Origin: Streptomyces griseochromogenes
GTDB lineage: Bacteria; Actinomycetota; Actinomycetes; Streptomycetales; Streptomycetaceae
Assembly (NCBI RefSeq): GCF_001542625.1
Contig: NZ_CP016279.1
Span: 3,906,001 to 3,970,000, forward strand
Direction: 5' to 3'
Length of the DNA stretch: 64,000 nucleotides
The first letter of the stretch is position 1; every line of letters starts with the position of its first letter. Made by a program: the position numbers and the translations under genes. Positions 23,597 through 29,917 of this stretch are shown here, in pieces. Under the pieces are notes generated by a model. It saw only the letters and a list, made by a program, of their open reading frames with translations. It did not search any database and was not told the DNA's origin.

Positions 23597-24553
23597 TCAC
23601 TCCTTCTCGTCTTCGTACTCGCCTTCGTCCTCGTCCTCGTCCTCCGTTTCGTCCTCCGGATACTCGCCCTCCGACGACTCTTCCTCTTCCTCGTCGAATT
23701 CTTCCCCGGGCCCCTCATCCTCGTACTCGGCCTCTTCCTCCTCCAGCGCTTCCTCGTGGGTGCGCACCACTTCGCCGTCACGGATCTCACCGCGCCACCC
23801 ATCGGCGGCCTCGTCGGAGAGCGTGACGTAGCGCTGGAAATGCTTGGCGTCGAGCCGCAGTCGGCGTCCTTGGGCGCGCCAGAGGTTGCCGGTCTTCTCG
23901 AAGAAGCCGGAGGGGTAGTACTCGACGACGAGCACGATGCGCGTGAGGGTGGGTGTCAGTTCGTGGAAGCTGACGCAGCCGCGGGTGCTGCCCTTGGCTC
24001 CGTCCGAGGTCCACATGATCCGTTCGTCCGGGATCTGTTCCTGCACGGTGGCCTTCCAGGAACGGGTGGAGGGCCCCACCTTCACCTTCCAGTCGCTGCT
24101 GGTCTCGTCCCCCTGGGACACCCCGCGCACGCCTTTGGTGAAGGAGCTGAACTTCTCGAACCGGGTCCAGTGGTCGTAGGCGACGCGGACGGGGACGCCT
24201 ACATCCAGGTGCTCGATGATGGTCGTGACCTTGGGATTTCCGGACTTGCGGCCTTTGCCGCCACCGAACAGGCTCGAAGCCTTTTCGGTCACGCTGTCTT
24301 TGATACGCGTCGCCTTCTCGCCGAGCAGAGCCTTGAGCGGCGATTCCCCTTGAAGGACGCGTGCGCCGACTTTCGGGAGAACCCCGCCGTTCTCGGCCAC
24401 ATCCAACAACTGGTCGGTGAGGTCTTCGACTTTGTCCCCCGCCACGTCCGCGAGATGCTCCATCTGCGCGCCGAGGTAGTCGACGAACTCGTCCCGCAAC
24501 CGGTCGAGGCCGGAGAGCTCGTCCCGCTCGGATTTCTGTGCCGCCCTGGCCAT
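23597..24553 (-). CDS. SRPBCC protein of the gas vesicle locus (GvpZ-like)
   Basis: 318 residues: a helical N-terminus (DRLRDEFVDYLGAQMEHLAD), an SRPBCC fold at about 105-245 (VTTIIEHLDVGVPVRVAYDHW, then FEKFSSFTKGVRGV), and an extreme acidic tail of about 65 residues, mostly Glu with Asp and Tyr. Streptomyces gas vesicle loci carry such a protein, described as gvpZ as I recall. Start ATG 24553 has GGAGG at 6 bases; the preceding gene's stop is 3 bases away, so the two are cotranscribed. The acidic tail could interact with the Lys-rich partner encoded just upstream. Confidence 0.82.
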   Translation of the reverse strand: MARAAQKSERDELSGLDRLRDEFVDYLGAQMEHLADVAGDKVEDLTDQLLDVAENGGVLPKVGARVLQGESPLKALLGEKATRIKDSVTEKASSLFGGGKGRKSGNPKVTTIIEHLDVGVPVRVAYDHWTRFEKFSSFTKGVRGVSQGDETSSDWKVKVGPSTRSWKATVQEQIPDERIMWTSDGAKGSTRGCVSFHELTPTLTRIVLVVEYYPSGFFEKTGNLWRAQGRRLRLDAKHFQRYVTLSDEAADGWRGEIRDGEVVRTHEEALEEEEAEYEDEGPGEEFDEEEEESSEGEYPEDETEDEDEDEGEYEDEKE

Positions 24554-24556
24554 GGC

Positions 24557-25417
24557 CTACCTCCGCCGTGTGGACGCCCTTTTGGCCGTCGTCTTCTTCG
24601 GGGCGGTCTTCTTCGGCGCGGTCTTCCTGGGGGCGGTCTTCTTCGCCGCGGACTTCCTTGCGGGCGCTGCGGTCTTCTTCGTGGCGGTCTTCCGAGCCGG
24701 TGCAGCGGTCTTCTTCGCGGCGGTCTTCCGAGCCGGTGCCGCGGTCTTCTTCGCAGCGGTCTTCCTGGGCGGTGCCGCGCTCTTCTTGGCCGTCTTCTCC
24801 GCCGGCTGCGCCTTCTCGGCGGCGGACTTGCGGGCCGGTGCCTTGCGCGGCGCGGGCCGCATGGACCGACGCTTGGCCGCGCGACGACGCCTCGGGGACT
24901 CCTCCTCCGGCTCCTCCCCGGCCTCCTCGGCCGGGCGGCCGGGGTGCCTGCGCCCGGACGTACGCCTCTTCGACCGCGGTTCCCCCGCCTCCTCAGGCTC
25001 CTCCTCGTACTCTCCCTCTTCAGGTTCCGCTTCCTCGTCCTCGAACTCCTCCTCTTCGCCCTCCGGCGCGTACTCCTCCTCGTCCCCCTCTTCCTCTTCC
25101 TCCTCCCTGCCGATACGAGCGGTCCGTTCGTGCAAGGCGTCCGCGAGATCGGCGAGTTTGCGGTCGGCCGCGGCGGCGAGCGCCTTGCGGCCCGCATCCT
25201 TGAGCTCGCCGCGTACCTGCTCGTTGAGGTCGGCGACCTGCGGCAACTCCTGGAGCCTGCGCAGCCCTTCGGTGAGCAGTTGCTGGGGTTCGAGGCCGAA
25301 CCGCCGCCCGGCGAGGTAGGTGGCCACTCCGAAGGCGAGCCGCCCCTTCTTGGCGCGGCCGAGGAGATAGCCTCCGGCGACTGCGGCAGCGAGAGCGATC
25401 TTCGTCGTTTCGTTCAT
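24557..25417 (-). CDS. Gas vesicle locus protein with acidic and Lys-rich repeats (GvpY-like)
   Basis: 286 residues in three blocks: a folded N-terminus (KIALAAAVAGGYLLGRAKKG, then QLLTEGLRRLQELPQV, about 1-85), an acidic Glu block (about 100-150), and a basic tail built of repeated K-K-T-A-A-P-A-R-K-T-A units. The first hydrophobic helix may be membrane-associated. Basic histone-H1-like tails of this kind bind acidic partners or nucleic acid; here the acidic SRPBCC partner is the obvious candidate. It corresponds in position and type to gvpY of Streptomyces, as I recall it. GGAGG precedes ATG 25417 at 9 bases. Confidence 0.78.
   Translation of the reverse strand: MNETTKIALAAAVAGGYLLGRAKKGRLAFGVATYLAGRRFGLEPQQLLTEGLRRLQELPQVADLNEQVRGELKDAGRKALAAAADRKLADLADALHERTARIGREEEEEEGDEEEYAPEGEEEEFEDEEAEPEEGEYEEEPEEAGEPRSKRRTSGRRHPGRPAEEAGEEPEEESPRRRRAAKRRSMRPAPRKAPARKSAAEKAQPAEKTAKKSAAPPRKTAAKKTAAPARKTAAKKTAAPARKTATKKTAAPARKSAAKKTAPRKTAPKKTAPKKTTAKRASTRRR
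24669..24776 (-). repeat. Three tandem 36-bp coding repeats
   Basis: Three copies of a 36-base unit beginning GCGGTCTTCTTCG on the plus strand, at 24669, 24705 and 24741, each encoding one basic KKTAAPARKTAA-like module of the gas vesicle accessory protein. Copies differ at a few positions. Confidence 0.8.
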
Positions 25418-25563
25418 CGATCATTCCCTCCGGCGAGCCGCGCGCGGTCGCAGGGCGGCGCGGGGCCGCCAGCAGCCCGTCGCAGCGCACTTTCAAGGTG
25501 TATATGGTGAAATACTACGTTTGAGTGACAGGTGGGCGCCGCTCCAGCGACGGAGTTGGGAAC
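25418..25563. promoter_or_regulatory. Divergent gas vesicle promoter region
   Basis: 145 bases between the divergent accessory operon and gvpO. A distinctly A/T-richer patch at 25490-25525 (AGGTGTATATGGTGAAATAC and following) contains TATATG- and TACTAC-like -10 boxes. No clear inverted repeat. Promoter assignment is by position and composition only. Confidence 0.45.
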
Positions 25564-25929
25564 ATGGCCGCGTCAGAAAAGGACGGCACAGGGAGTGGCA
25601 GGCGGCCCTCCCAGGGTGACGACACGGCACGCCGGGCACGCCGCAGCGGCAGGGCCACGAAGCCCGGCAAGCACTCGGCGGCATGGGCCATGCGCCGCGC
25701 CGCGGGGCAACTGGAGGAACTCCTCGGACGTGTCCCCGAATCCGTGTCGGCAATAAAGCCGACCGAAGAGGGCTGGGAAGCGGATGTCGAGGTACTCGAA
25801 CTGGAGCGAGTGCCCGAGACCACCAGCGTGCTGGGCACCTACCACGTGACGCTGGACGAGGAGGGCGACCTGCTGGCGTACGAGCGGACCCGCCGCTACA
25901 CACGCGGCCAGATCGACCGGCGCCACTGA
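25564..25929 (+). CDS. gvpO: Gas vesicle protein GvpO
   Basis: 121 residues. The C-terminal 80 residues match the GvpO family (MRRAAGQLEELLGRVPESVS, then EADVEVLELERVPETTSVLG, and TYHVTLDEEGDLLAYERTRRY). A basic, disordered 40-residue N-terminus precedes it. GvpO is a required minor protein in haloarchaea and heads the Streptomyces gvp operon. ATG 25564 has a GGAGTTGGGA site. It is the first gene of the plus-strand gvp operon. Confidence 0.93.
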   Translation: MAASEKDGTGSGRRPSQGDDTARRARRSGRATKPGKHSAAWAMRRAAGQLEELLGRVPESVSAIKPTEEGWEADVEVLELERVPETTSVLGTYHVTLDEEGDLLAYERTRRYTRGQIDRRH

Positions 25930-25961
25930 TACGCATGAGGGGGTGGTGATGGGGAGGCACC

Positions 25962-26459
25962 ATGACTGTGGTGCCACAGGGCGGTAGCGGCAGCCTCTCG
26001 CGCGCAAGCACCAGCAGCCTGTACGACGTCCTGGATCTGATCCTCGACCGCGGCCTCGTCATCGACGTCTTCGTCCGCGTGTCCCTCGTCGGCATCGAGA
26101 TCCTCAAGATCGACGCCCGCATCGTCGTGGCCAGCGTAGACACCTATCTGCGCTTCGCCGAGGCGTGCAACCGCCTCGACCTCGAAACCGGCAGCAAGCA
26201 GCCCACGCAGCTCACCGACCTGGTCGGCGAGATCACCGAGGGCGGGGCCGAGGGCAGGACCAAGGGGGCCCTGACCGGCGCGGTCGAGGCCGTCAAGGAC
26301 TCCCTGACCGGCGGCGACGGCGAAGAGGAGGACGAGGACGAAGAGGAGTACGAGCAGAACGGGGAAGGCGAACAGGAGGAGCCCGAGTTCGAGGAGGAGC
26401 CCAGGCGGCAGCGCCGTCGCCGACCGGCCGGAAGGGCTTCCCGGCGGCAGAGGGAGTGA
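25962..26459 (+). CDS. gvpA: Gas vesicle structural protein GvpA
   Basis: 165 residues. Residues 12-75 are the GvpA shell fold ([20 protein letters not shown], then [20 protein letters not shown], then [16 protein letters not shown]), the amphipathic helix-strand-strand-helix subunit that polymerises into the rib wall. The remaining 90 residues are an acidic Glu-rich stretch followed by a basic end, an extension typical of actinobacterial GvpA and absent from the 70-80 residue classical protein. GGGGAGG ribosome site before ATG 25962. Intact. Confidence 0.95.
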
Positions 26460-26461
26460 CC

Positions 26462-27175
26462 ATGGCCGTCTACGTCTACTCGATCACCTCGAAGGACCAC
26501 CCGATGCGGCTGGACGACCTCCATGGCGTCGGCGACCCACCCGGTCGGCTGCGCACGGTGACCGCCGGAGTGCTGTGCGCGGTCGTCAGTGACGCGCCCG
26601 AGGAACTGCGCCCCAGACGCCGCGACGTCCAGGCACACCAGGAGGTCCAGGAGCGGCTGATGGCCGACGGAGCGGTACTCCCGCTGCGGTTCGGCATGAC
26701 GGCCGAGGACGACGAAGCCGTTCGCGGAGCCCTGGAGGACAACGCGGGCGAATATCAGGAACAGCTGCAGAACCTGGACGGCGCCACCGAGTACAACCTG
26801 AAGGTCTCCTGGGAGGAGGAGGCGCTGTTGCGCCAGATCCTTCTGGAGTCGGATGAGATCCGCGAACTCAACACCGCCACCCGTGGTGGCTCCGGTACCC
26901 CCGAGATGTCACTCACGCTCGGCGAACTGGTCGCGCAGGAGGCCGAGGCACGGCAGCAGGCGCTCGCCGCGGGTGTCGTCGAGGCGCTGCGCCCGTACGC
27001 GCGCGACGAAAGCGTCTCGCCGCCCGGCGGCCGTGACTTCCTCAACGTCTCCTTCCTGGTCCAGGATGACGAGGAGGAAATGTTCCTGGCCACGGGGATC
27101 AGCCTGGCCAACCAACTGGGCGAGGACTGCGAGTTCCGGCTGCGCGGACCGCTGCCCCCGTACAGTTTCGTCTGA
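26462..27175 (+). CDS. gvpF: Gas vesicle protein GvpF
   Basis: 237-residue GvpF/L family member with both subdomains: N-terminal VYVYSITSKDHPMRL and RDVQAHQEVQERLMADGAVLPLRFGM, and C-terminal EEMFLATGISLANQLGEDCE ending PYSFV, the family's conserved terminus (P-P-Y-S-F). GvpF nucleates vesicle assembly at the interior surface. Two bases after the gvpA stop. Intact, in contrast to its paralogue gvpL downstream. Confidence 0.95.
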   Translation: MAVYVYSITSKDHPMRLDDLHGVGDPPGRLRTVTAGVLCAVVSDAPEELRPRRRDVQAHQEVQERLMADGAVLPLRFGMTAEDDEAVRGALEDNAGEYQEQLQNLDGATEYNLKVSWEEEALLRQILLESDEIRELNTATRGGSGTPEMSLTLGELVAQEAEARQQALAAGVVEALRPYARDESVSPPGGRDFLNVSFLVQDDEEEMFLATGISLANQLGEDCEFRLRGPLPPYSFV

Positions 27176-27187
27176 GAGGCGCTGCTC

Positions 27188-27440
27188 ATGGGCCTGCTGA
27201 CCCATCCTCACTTTTCCGCTGGCGCCCGTGCGGGGCGTGACCTGGGTCGTCGACCGCGTGCTCGAGGCCGCCGAGCGGGAGTACTACGACCCCGAGCCCG
27301 TGGAGCGTGAACCGGCCGCGCTGGAGAGGGCACTGATCGAGGGCCGCATCGGCCAGAAGACCTTCGACGAGCACGAGGACCGGCTCCTCGACCGCCTGGA
27401 GGAGATCGCGGCCCACCGGCGGGGCGACACCGCTCCCTGA
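27188..27440 (+). pseudogene. gvpG: gvpG with a +1 frameshift near codon 6
   Basis: From ATG 27188 the frame reads MGLLTH and then leaves the family. From about 27207 the +1 frame reads LTFPLAPVRGVTWVVDRVLE and continues to EEIAAHRRGDTAP at the stop 27440, a complete GvpG. Removing one base near 27205 restores MGLLTHLTFPLAPVRGV. The downstream frame is closed by a TGA at 27198, so it cannot be extended upstream. A 70-residue product could start at GTG 27228 but would lack the hydrophobic N-terminus. Either a real frameshift or a single-base sequence error. Confidence 0.82.
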
Positions 27441-27508
27441 GCTGGAACAGAGGTGCCTGCCGCGTCGGAACCCGCAGCCAGCGGCTGAGCTCGTACCCCT
27501 CCAGGGCC

Positions 27509-27891
27509 ATGACCCCGTACGGCTACGGACAGGGCTCTTCGGCGAACCTGGCCGACATCCTCGAGCGCGTATTGGACAAGGGGATCGTCATCGCGGGGAC
27601 ATCCGGATCAACCTCCTCGACGTCGAGCTGCTCACCATCGAACTGCGGCTCATCGTCGCCTCGGTCGACAAGGCCAGGGAGATGGGAATCGACTGGTGGG
27701 AACACGATCCGTCGCTGTCGACGCGTGCCGGCGACCGTGCGCTGGCCGAGGAGAACAGACGCCTGCAGGCCGGGATCGAGGCGCTGAGGAAGGAACGGGA
27801 GCTGTCGCCGGGCGAGGAGCGGCGGACCGCCGGCCGGCGCAGCACCTCGCGGTCCTCCACCAGGCGCGGGAGCGGTGCGGCCGATGACTGA
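27509..27891 (+). pseudogene. gvpJ: gvpJ (GvpA paralogue) with a -1 frameshift
   Basis: Frame one reads SANLADILERVLDKGIVIAG and then becomes Ser/Thr nonsense. One base lower the frame reads DIRINLLDVELLTIELRLIV and then ASVDKAREMGIDWWEHDPSL on to the stop at 27891. Joined, this is a normal minor shell protein of the GvpJ/M type. The junction is in a G run at 27595-27598, where one G appears to be missing, so slippage (biological or technical) is the simplest cause. As written the product loses its second half and the vesicle lacks this minor protein. Confidence 0.85.
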
Positions 27892-28713
27892 TCGGGTCAC
27901 CTACGCCTACGCCGTACTGCGGGACCACGAGGGACTCACCGCGGTCCTGGAGGGCGTGGAAGGCGTAGCGGGGGCACCGGTCCGCCTGCTGCCGGCGGGC
28001 CCTGGGAGCGAGCTCGCCGCCGTCGTCGGCTCAGTTCCCGCCCAGGACTTCCAGGAGAGCGCCCTGCGACGCCATCTCGAGGACCTGGACTGGCTGGAGG
28101 CGGTCGCCCGCGCCCACCACGCCGTGATCGAGGCCCTGGCCGCGCACATCACGATGCTGCCGCTGCGGCTCGCCACGGTGTACCTGGACGATGGACGTGT
28201 GGAGGCGATGCTGCGCGCGGACGCCGAGCAGTTCTCGCAGGCCGTGCGGCGACTGGTGGGCCACCTCGAATGGGGCGTCAAGATCTACGTGGAGCCGCAG
28301 CCGGACACGCGGGTGAGCGGCGAGGAGGGCACGTCCGGCGCGGCCGACGGGCTCAGCCCCGGCCGGGCCTATCTGCGCGCCCGCCGTTCCCAGCGGCACT
28401 CGCGCGACGAGTCCTACCGGTCCGCCAGGCAGGCCGCCGAGCGCGTCGAGGCGGTCGGCCGCGCCATGGCGGCCGATCACGCCCGGCACCGGGTGCAGCA
28501 GGGGGTGCTCGCCGCCGGTGCCGGGGAGAACGTCGTCAACGACGCCTATCTCGTGGCGCAGGAGACGGCGGCGGAATTCCGCACGCGGGTCCTCGAAGCC
28601 GGCCGGGGACTGCCCGGCGTGCGCATCGACGTCACCGGCCCGGCCCCTGGGCGCCGTACTCCTTCGCGGCTCCGCCCGGCGCCGAGGGTCCGGCACCGGA
28701 CCCGGCGCCATGA
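27884..28713 (+). pseudogene. gvpL: gvpL, C-terminus frameshifted by 5-bp duplication
   Basis: GvpF/L family. ATG 27884 overlaps the gvpJ end. The body is intact: VTYAYAVLRDHEGLTAVLEG, HHAVIEALAAHITMLPLRLA and GENVVNDAYLVAQETAAEFR. After VRIDVTGP the frame should read W-A-P-Y-S-F, the family's fixed end, but a GGCCC duplication at 28637-28646 shifts it. The correct tail WAPYSFAAPPGAEGPAPDPAP stays in the +2 frame to a TGA at 28713 overlapping the gvpS ATG. As written, translation runs on out of frame through gvpS and re-enters the gvpK frame, giving a 490-residue fusion. Confidence 0.85.
28637..28646. repeat. Five-base tandem duplication disrupting gvpL
   Basis: GGCCCGGCCC immediately before CTGGGCGCCG. 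Removing one copy restores GGC CCC TGG GCG CCG TAC TCC, that is G-P-W-A-P-Y-S, the expected GvpL terminus. A 5-base duplication is less likely than a homopolymer indel to be a sequencing artefact. Confidence 0.8.
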
Positions 28714-28943
28714 ACGGGGTGGAGCGACGGCCCGGGGCCGAGCCGCTGGCACAGCGCCAGGTGGCCCTCGTCGATCTGCTCGACCGCCTGCTGAGCGGCG
28801 GCGTCGTCCTCACCGGGGATGTGGTGCTGTCGATCGCCGACATCGACCTGGTACGCATCTCCTTGCGGGCCCTGATCGTGTCCGTGAGCGCCCGGAACCC
28901 GTCGCCGTGGGAGGCCGCCGCGCGCCCCGAGGACGAGCCGTGA
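28710..28943 (+). CDS. gvpS: Gas vesicle protein GvpS (GvpA paralogue)
   Basis: 77 residues with a GvpA-type core: VALVDLLDRLLSGGVVLTGD, then VVLSIADIDLVRISLRALIV, then SVSARNPSPW. Starts at ATG 28710 overlapping the intended gvpL stop (ATGA) and ends overlapping the gvpK start (GTGA), so translation was coupled to gvpL. The gvpL frameshift makes ribosomes read through this region in another frame, which could lower its expression. Confidence 0.92.
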   Translation: MNGVERRPGAEPLAQRQVALVDLLDRLLSGGVVLTGDVVLSIADIDLVRISLRALIVSVSARNPSPWEAAARPEDEP

Positions 28944-29365
28944 CGGGCGCGCACGGCGGCGGGCGCCCCGATCCGTCCGGCCGCCTGCGCGAGGTCGCCG
29001 ACGCGGCGGCCCGGGCGTTCCGGCTGCTGCCCGCCGTACCCGACGACATCACACCGGCCGGACGGCCCGGGCCGCCGCGTCCGGCCCGCCGTGTCAGCGC
29101 CGATCCCGACACCGTCGAACGCGACCTGATCAGACTTGTCCTCACCCTGGTCGAGCTGTTGCGGCAGCTCATGGAGCGGCAGGCGCTGCACCGCGTCGAC
29201 CAGGGCGACCTCACCGAGGAGGAGGAAGAGCGCTTGGGCGCCACCCTGATGATCCTCCACGACCGCATGAGCGACCTGTGCGCCCGCTACGGCCTGACCA
29301 TGGACGATCTCAACCTGGACCTCGGCCCGCTCGGCCCGCTCCTGCCGCCCGATCGCCTGGACTGA
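28940..29365 (+). CDS. gvpK: Gas vesicle protein GvpK
   Basis: 141 residues. The family core is RRVSADPDTVERDLIRLVLT, then LVELLRQLMERQALHRVDQG, then MILHDRMSDLCARYGLTMDD with DLNLDLGPLGPLL. GTG 28940 overlaps the gvpS stop. Last gene of the operon. Because of the upstream 5-base insertion it is now also in frame with gvpL and could be made as the end of a long fusion. Confidence 0.92.
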   Translation: MTGAHGGGRPDPSGRLREVADAAARAFRLLPAVPDDITPAGRPGPPRPARRVSADPDTVERDLIRLVLTLVELLRQLMERQALHRVDQGDLTEEEEERLGATLMILHDRMSDLCARYGLTMDDLNLDLGPLGPLLPPDRLD

Positions 29366-29668
29366 CGGTGCGCAACATGAACACGCACATCTGCGCCGCC
29401 GCCGAAGCACCTCTGCACAGGTAGCGGGCTCAGAGTTCGCGCAACGCGGGCAGCGGTGTCCTCTCCGCGTCTTCTCCGCGCGATCGCCCGGATGATTCCG
29501 ATCGGCTCGGCGGGCATGTCGTGGGCGTACGTCGACGGCGGGCCGAAGTCCGCCGCCGACATGCCCGTTGATGTTCTCTCGGAGCCCGGCCCCAGCCGTA
29601 AGCGGCCGTCGGACAGCGGCCGCACGGTCGCCGCCCATCGATTCCGGTCCGCTCCGGAAACCGCGGGC
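29366..29668. other. Gap between gvpK and the csbD promoter
   Basis: About 300 bases with no gene or hairpin I can support. No terminator for the gvp operon is recognisable here. Confidence 0.35.
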
Positions 29669-29743: not shown

Positions 29744-29917
29744 ATGGCCGGAAACCAAAAGGCAAAGGCCAAGATGGAGCAGGCCAAGGGAAAGGCCAAG
29801 GCGACGGTCGGCCGCACGCTGGGCAATGAGCGGATGGCGGCCGAGGGGCAGGCCGAGAAGTCGAAGGGCGATGCGCGTCAGGCGAAGGAGAAGGCGAAGG
29901 ACATGTTCAAGCACTGA
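29744..29917 (+). CDS. CsbD-family general stress protein
   Basis: 57 residues, almost all Lys, Ala, Gly, Glu and Gln: NQKAKAKMEQAKGKAKATVG and GNERMAAEGQAEKSKGDARQ, the standard CsbD pattern, predicted helical and soluble. Small enough to be missed by length cut-offs. AGGAGAGTG precedes ATG 29744, a SigB-like promoter lies upstream and a perfect terminator follows, so it is a single-gene stress-induced transcript. Molecular role unknown in the family. Confidence 0.92.
   Translation: MAGNQKAKAKMEQAKGKAKATVGRTLGNERMAAEGQAEKSKGDARQAKEKAKDMFKH

Follow-up and report, generated by a model that had tools for sequence, protein, structure and literature searches.

Frameshifted gvpG, gvpJ and gvpL in the native gas vesicle cluster of Streptomyces griseochromogenes: probable recent loss of function beside a second, open cluster

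The gvp operon

The window, a stretch of 64,000 nucleotides (G000:C1:3906001-3970000), lies on the chromosome of Streptomyces griseochromogenes, which is closed in a single contig of 10.76 Mb (completeness 100, contamination 0.82). Between positions 25564 and 29365, the forward strand carries eight gas vesicle genes in the order gvpO-A-F-G-J-L-S-K (Table 1). All eight are arranged as in a Streptomyces-type gvp cluster, in order and on one strand, and each had a Pfam match, whole or in pieces. The genes gvpO, gvpA, gvpF, gvpS and gvpK were open and scored above the Pfam cut-offs; no single open frame was present for gvpG, gvpJ or gvpL. A megablast search of the operon against plasmids gave no match.

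Table 1. Features of the gvp operon and its upstream flank (positions are those of the window)
Feature	Position	Strand	Observation
Two divergent genes upstream of the operon	23597..25417	-	first PF03364 (polyketide_cyc/SRPBCC); second lysine/alanine-rich by eye
gvpO, open	25564..25929	+	Pfam GvpO PF05800, 116 bits
gvpA, open	25962..26459	+	Pfam Gas_vesicle PF00741, 45 bits
gvpF, open	26462..27175	+	Pfam GvpL_GvpF PF06386, 216 bits, profile 1-244 of 245
gvpG, broken	27188..27440	+	-2 after 27204 (codon 6) relative to each of the four relatives, by alignment
gvpJ, broken twice	27453..27891	+	-1 near 27482 (N-terminal part) and -1 in G run 27595-27598, by alignment
gvpL, broken near 3' end	27884..28713	+	5-base tandem duplication 28637-28646, by alignment
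By-product ORF, 493 aa	27884..29365	+	GvpL minus its C-terminus, gvpS in another frame, GvpK in frame
gvpS, open	28710..28943	+	PF00741, 49.5 bits
gvpK, open	28940..29365	+	PF05121, 118 bits

Comparison with relatives

The operon was aligned with five rows (G033, MMG1121, S. monashensis, G302 and G255). The G302 and S. monashensis rows were identical in sequence, which leaves four independent relatives. DNA identity to the window operon was 88% for G033, 84% for MMG1121, 83% for S. monashensis and 82% for G255, so that all four reached the level of at least 80% that we used for orthologues. Each of the eight genes was at full length in all four relatives (32 of 32 gene copies, each read from its aligned start), whereas the aligned starts in the window gave products of 40 aa for gvpG, 11 aa for gvpJ and 493 aa for gvpL. 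Four coding indels were private to the window among the five genomes compared: a loss of two bases in gvpG, two losses of one base in gvpJ, and a gain of five bases in gvpL. Judged by a frame disrupted relative to intact orthologues, gvpG, gvpJ and gvpL would count as pseudogenes against all four relatives. The alignment is blind to indels private to S. monashensis (G302 being the same sequence), and the gene-by-gene reading of every relative covered these. A further private indel, the gain of one base at 25950, fell between gvpO and gvpA, and 3-base insertions private to the window were present in both of these genes. The initial annotation of the locus, made from the window sequence, had described gvpG, gvpJ and gvpL as out of frame and gvpO, gvpA, gvpF, gvpS and gvpK as intact; the alignment with the four relatives, the reading frames and the Pfam matches agreed with this description.

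Lesions in gvpG, gvpJ and gvpL

The gvpG frame that begins at ATG 27188 stopped after 40 aa, and the remainder of the gene was open only from GTG 27228, as an ORF of 70 aa covering positions 9-67 of the 67 in the GvpG profile. All four relatives have a GvpG of 84 aa, and 67 of the 69 listed GvpG proteins are 80-89 aa long, the exceptions being that of the window (70 aa) and one of 68 aa. The protein collection has the 70-aa form on 3 contigs, the same count as for the intact GvpF, although these contigs may copy one record. The lesion had been read in the initial annotation as one extra base near 27205. The frame is indeed broken there, but two bases are missing relative to every relative; as a loss of two shifts the frame in the same way as a gain of one, the earlier reading was wrong in kind.

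The gvpJ gene is damaged at two sites. MMG1121, S. monashensis and G255 lack the ATG that the window has at 27509. Upstream of this position, each of the four relatives carries a GTG or ATG in frame, and a conserved N-terminus follows it (ANRLSAYPSRA in MMG1121, ANRLGSYPSRA in the second cluster described below). The start of gvpJ is probably located upstream of ATG 27509, at a GTG or ATG. From the aligned GTG 27453, the window frame ended after 11 aa, compared to 143-146 aa in the four relatives. From ATG 27509 it gave 92 aa, of which about 30 are GvpJ. The PF00741 matches were split accordingly into profile positions 1-18 and 17-39. The run of G at 27595-27598 has one base less than the G5 of two relatives, in line with the missing G that had been proposed at this place, but the private 1-base loss near 27482 had been overlooked. 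We considered an intergenic position for the indel near 27482 and ruled it out, as the site falls inside gvpJ of the relatives.

In gvpL, the motif GGCCC forms a perfect tandem pair at 28637-28641 and 28642-28646. The alignment confirmed the 5-base duplication noted earlier and placed it in the window only. The window gvpL followed the PF06386 profile over positions 2-239 of 245 and then went out of frame; the protein is 274-280 aa long in the four relatives. As for an intact allele from the same species, the matches listed contained no GvpL of more than 84% identity.

Beyond the duplication, the gvpL frame runs on into the 493-aa ORF, in which Pfam recognised both GvpL_GvpF and GvpK. It is hardly credible that this ORF represents a new functional GvpL-GvpK fusion, with the truncated GvpG used from GTG 27228. 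Both domains do sit in one frame, but the linker between them is gvpS read out of frame, and no GvpL homologue longer than 324 aa occurred among the best 120 listed of the 391 found. Moreover, the frame of gvpK also stays open upstream in G033, so a GvpL-GvpK fusion needs no selection or special cause. What the truncated GvpG lacks corresponds to the beginning of the Pfam profile, which argues against its function.

Background of broken genes and assembly quality

As a control, we compared G000 with G033 over a core stretch of about 400 kb distant from the window, and applied a filter that asked for a coding signal on both sides of each frame change. Only 1 of 190 comparable genes was broken after the filter and 8 of 190 before it; in the reverse direction, G033 had 0 of 200 and 9 of 200 broken genes, respectively. 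The filter set aside seven of the eight and all nine flagged genes, which had no coding signal on one side of the frame change. The sole gene of the 190 that looked genuinely frameshifted relative to G033 lies at G000:C1:1309941-1311244. With three of eight genes broken, the gvp operon exceeded the background of 1/190 with P of about 8e-6, the upper 95% bound of that background (2.9%) with P of 0.001, and the unfiltered 8/190 with P of 0.004; all three values are uncorrected for the choice of a region that looked broken. Local controls outside the operon were few (e.g. four genes of G033 C23 and one of C34), and none of them was flagged.

Single-base indels between the two genomes were balanced over 278 kb, with 190 bases missing in G000 and 183 in G033. 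In homopolymers of at least 4 bases, 14 were missing in each. Together with the low background of broken genes, this balance indicates that G000 neither loses homopolymer bases nor breaks genes clearly more than its draft relative, and genome-wide assembly noise is an unlikely cause of the gvp lesions.

A codon-phase hidden Markov model used to scan for frameshifts detected the shift in gvpL and the second of those in gvpJ, and missed that of gvpG. Its strict candidates numbered 6 per 400 kb of the G000 core, 10 per 420 kb of G033 and 13 per 400 kb in the surroundings of the window. Three of these 13 fell in the operon, one of them junction-like; the other strict candidates were mostly gene-junction-like, and two of the six in the core stretch recurred in G033. 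The scan thus lends weak support to the frameshifts, and the higher count near the window is mild evidence that the local background is not clean. We also surveyed 34 fetched clusters with tblastn and observed split frames in three, one gene in each (gvpJ of the window, gvpA of G134 and gvpF of G119). This survey is blind near gene ends, where it missed gvpG and gvpL of the window, and some of the loci were cut at their ends.

A second gvp cluster

A whole-genome Pfam search returned the GvpA-family genes of the window and three more at 5.052-5.055 Mb. The latter belong to a second gvp cluster at about 5,052,128-5,055,877 of G000:C1 (L038 6129-9878), about 1.1 Mb from the window operon. All eight of its genes were open, and GvpG, GvpJ, GvpL and GvpS, the four that were scanned, scored above the Pfam cut-offs. 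The DNA of the two clusters is 71% identical. The spacer between gvpG and gvpJ (27441-27452 in the window; L038 7979-8017 in the second cluster) holds no gvpY or gvpZ in either.

Searches of G033, G302 and G255 at E<=1e-100 gave no orthologue of the second cluster and found only orthologues of the window cluster. The best match to the second cluster in the seven genomes searched came from a less closely related genome, G157, at 75%. When the limit was relaxed, G255:C1:9456079-9460776 gave pieces that share 71-82% identity with the gvpA, gvpJ and gvpK genes of the second cluster. These pieces, near 9.456-9.461 Mb, are probably another, diverged gvp cluster beside the intact native one. It follows that a genome may carry some kind of second gvp cluster and yet keep its native one unbroken.

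A tree of GvpF (24 rows) grouped the window copy in a 5-row clade (100/100) together with G033, MMG1121, S. monashensis and G255. The copy from the second cluster was placed outside this native clade, among G157, G034 and others, a part of the tree that did not resolve the finer and deeper forks. The second cluster was thus not found in close relatives and is phylogenetically apart, as judged from three relatives and a single-gene tree. Its right flank was common to G255 at 85%, and the left flank was absent from the compared stretch. On the evidence of those three relatives and that one tree, the second cluster was probably acquired horizontally; differential loss of an old duplicate is a less likely origin. 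Transposase-like and recombinase-like ORFs, judged by eye, were seen within about 20 kb of the second cluster. A tRNA search around it found none.

Selection and age of the loss

Codon changes private to the window amounted to 65 nonsynonymous and 69 synonymous, compared to 56 and 67 in G033 (P = 0.71 for the whole comparison). For gvpG, gvpJ and gvpL alone, the ratios were 28:25 in the window and 28:23 in G033, with a neutral expectation of about 2.5:1. The share of the branch that was neutral was best estimated at 0, with an upper bound of 0.58. As there is no detectable relaxation at the codon level, the loss looks young.

The indels were set against the same range, with an intergenic indel rate that came from 2.5 kb only. 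If 10% of the branch were neutral, 0.38 non-triplet indels would be expected, and the probability of at least three would be 0.007 (about 0.0006 for four, calculated by hand). At 58%, the expectation rises to 2.2, with P = 0.37 for at least three and, again by hand, about 0.18 for four. Several indels in genes with no relaxed substitution thus appear to exceed what a very short neutral period should give. The codon and indel data are compatible with decay, and also with local error or with selection for loss.

Interpretation

On balance, we consider it probable that the native cluster of this genome has recently lost its function, having been made redundant by the second, probably horizontally acquired cluster. 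The window operon would be the vertically inherited copy, in which four small indels would recently have put gvpG, gvpJ and gvpL out of frame. This copy would yield no GvpG, GvpJ or GvpL of normal form, and the broken cluster alone should not suffice. The lesions may also be polar and lower the translation of the next gene, because stop and start codons overlap at gvpJ-gvpL and gvpL-gvpS. The second cluster, presumably gained by horizontal transfer, would supply the function and thereby lift selection on the native one; it is from these relations that we infer redundancy to be the cause of the decay. From the second cluster, the cell may still be able to form gas vesicles or to maintain whatever other function gvp clusters have in Streptomyces. 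Of the three options offered in the initial annotation (recent decay, phase-variation-like slippage and assembly error), recent decay is the best supported, by the private indels, the four relatives with full-length genes and the lack of measurable relaxation. The loss of gas vesicle formation that it had suggested does not follow, since a second gvp cluster with eight open genes is present in the same genome.

The lesions could be real and the second cluster still have no part in them, if the organism can do without gas vesicles in soil or in laboratory culture, their loss being neutral or selected. This reading differs from redundancy in cause only and shares with it the reality of the lesions. 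Precedents can be found in a natural gvpG truncation with buoyancy loss in culture in Anabaena sp. 90 (in passages of PMC3542288) and in a Streptomyces gvp disruption with no effect on buoyancy, cited in the text of PMC5839063. We hold it possible but doubtful, as the open second cluster offers a ready explanation, the decay is limited to the native copy, and the native cluster is full length in four relatives. That most of the indels are instead local sequencing or assembly errors, and that the cell has an intact native cluster, strikes us as rather unlikely. The private non-triplet indels within 4 kb (four coding, one intergenic), the unrelaxed codon changes and the G run at one of the sites would fit such errors. 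Broken genes are, however, not in excess genome-wide, homopolymer deletion bias relative to G033 is absent, and the 2-base loss in gvpG and the 5-base duplication in gvpL are not homopolymer slips; the recurrence of the 70-aa GvpG on as many contigs as the intact GvpF points the same way, unless these are copies of one record. Assembly error is therefore disfavoured at the scale of the genome and conceivable at this locus.

Reversible slippage that toggles the operon by phase variation can be given almost no credence. A G run of 4 to 5 bases does occupy one of the sites, and the 2-copy 5-base repeat in gvpL could in principle contract; nevertheless, none of the seven tandem-repeat rows in 25500-29400 (score of at least 30) lay over a lesion site, one switch cannot reset four different lesions in three genes, and the frames are full length in four relatives. 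It is also very unlikely that gvpO, gvpA, gvpF, gvpS and gvpK of the window work with GvpG, GvpJ and GvpL provided in trans by the second cluster. Were such a mosaic real, the organelle pathway would have been built through loss of exactly the parts that are complemented.

Returning to a redundant native cluster in recent decay, several known systems invite comparison. As described in passages of PMC5839063, S. coelicolor has two gvp clusters, SCO6499-6508 and SCO0649-0657, with gvpY and gvpZ standing between G and J; gas vesicles had not been seen in this species, according to passages of PMC5839063 and PMC4982088. S. griseochromogenes resembles it, as far as those passages describe it, in having two clusters per genome with the order O-A-F-G-...-J-L-S, and differs in the lack of gvpY and gvpZ between G and J and in the frameshifts that affect three genes of one cluster. 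The case of Anabaena sp. 90, as given in passages of PMC3542288, is likewise a natural loss-of-function lesion in the gvpG of a gvp operon; there, a single gene was affected and loss of buoyancy was seen, whereas here three genes are broken and a second cluster is open. As in the bacterial pseudogenes of redundant or transferred genes treated in PMC522871, small lesions would have disabled a copy. There, failed transferred genes are named as a large source of pseudogenes, while in our case it is the native copy that decays and the probable newcomer that is open. Pseudogene formation in a redundant cluster would thus be of an already known kind, and the window operon a further example. Among titles and abstract openings, we found no report of frameshifted gvp clusters in Streptomyces.

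The genome can be regarded as a small natural experiment on the purpose of two gvp clusters in one Streptomyces. For annotation, we must also note that neither should the window operon be called functional nor the strain incapable of gas vesicles.

Neighbouring genes

The stretch upstream of the operon that holds the two divergent genes matched G033 C105, which in turn matched the stretch beside the second cluster. A Pfam scan of the lysine/alanine-rich gene gave no match. The pairing of an SRPBCC/polyketide_cyc gene with a lysine/alanine-rich gene adjoins both gvp clusters as well as the clusters of relatives, and suggests a conserved gvp-associated unit. On the 3' side of the operon lies a gene for a CsbD-like stress protein (29744-29917; PF05532), in a stretch that is 80-83% identical in relatives.
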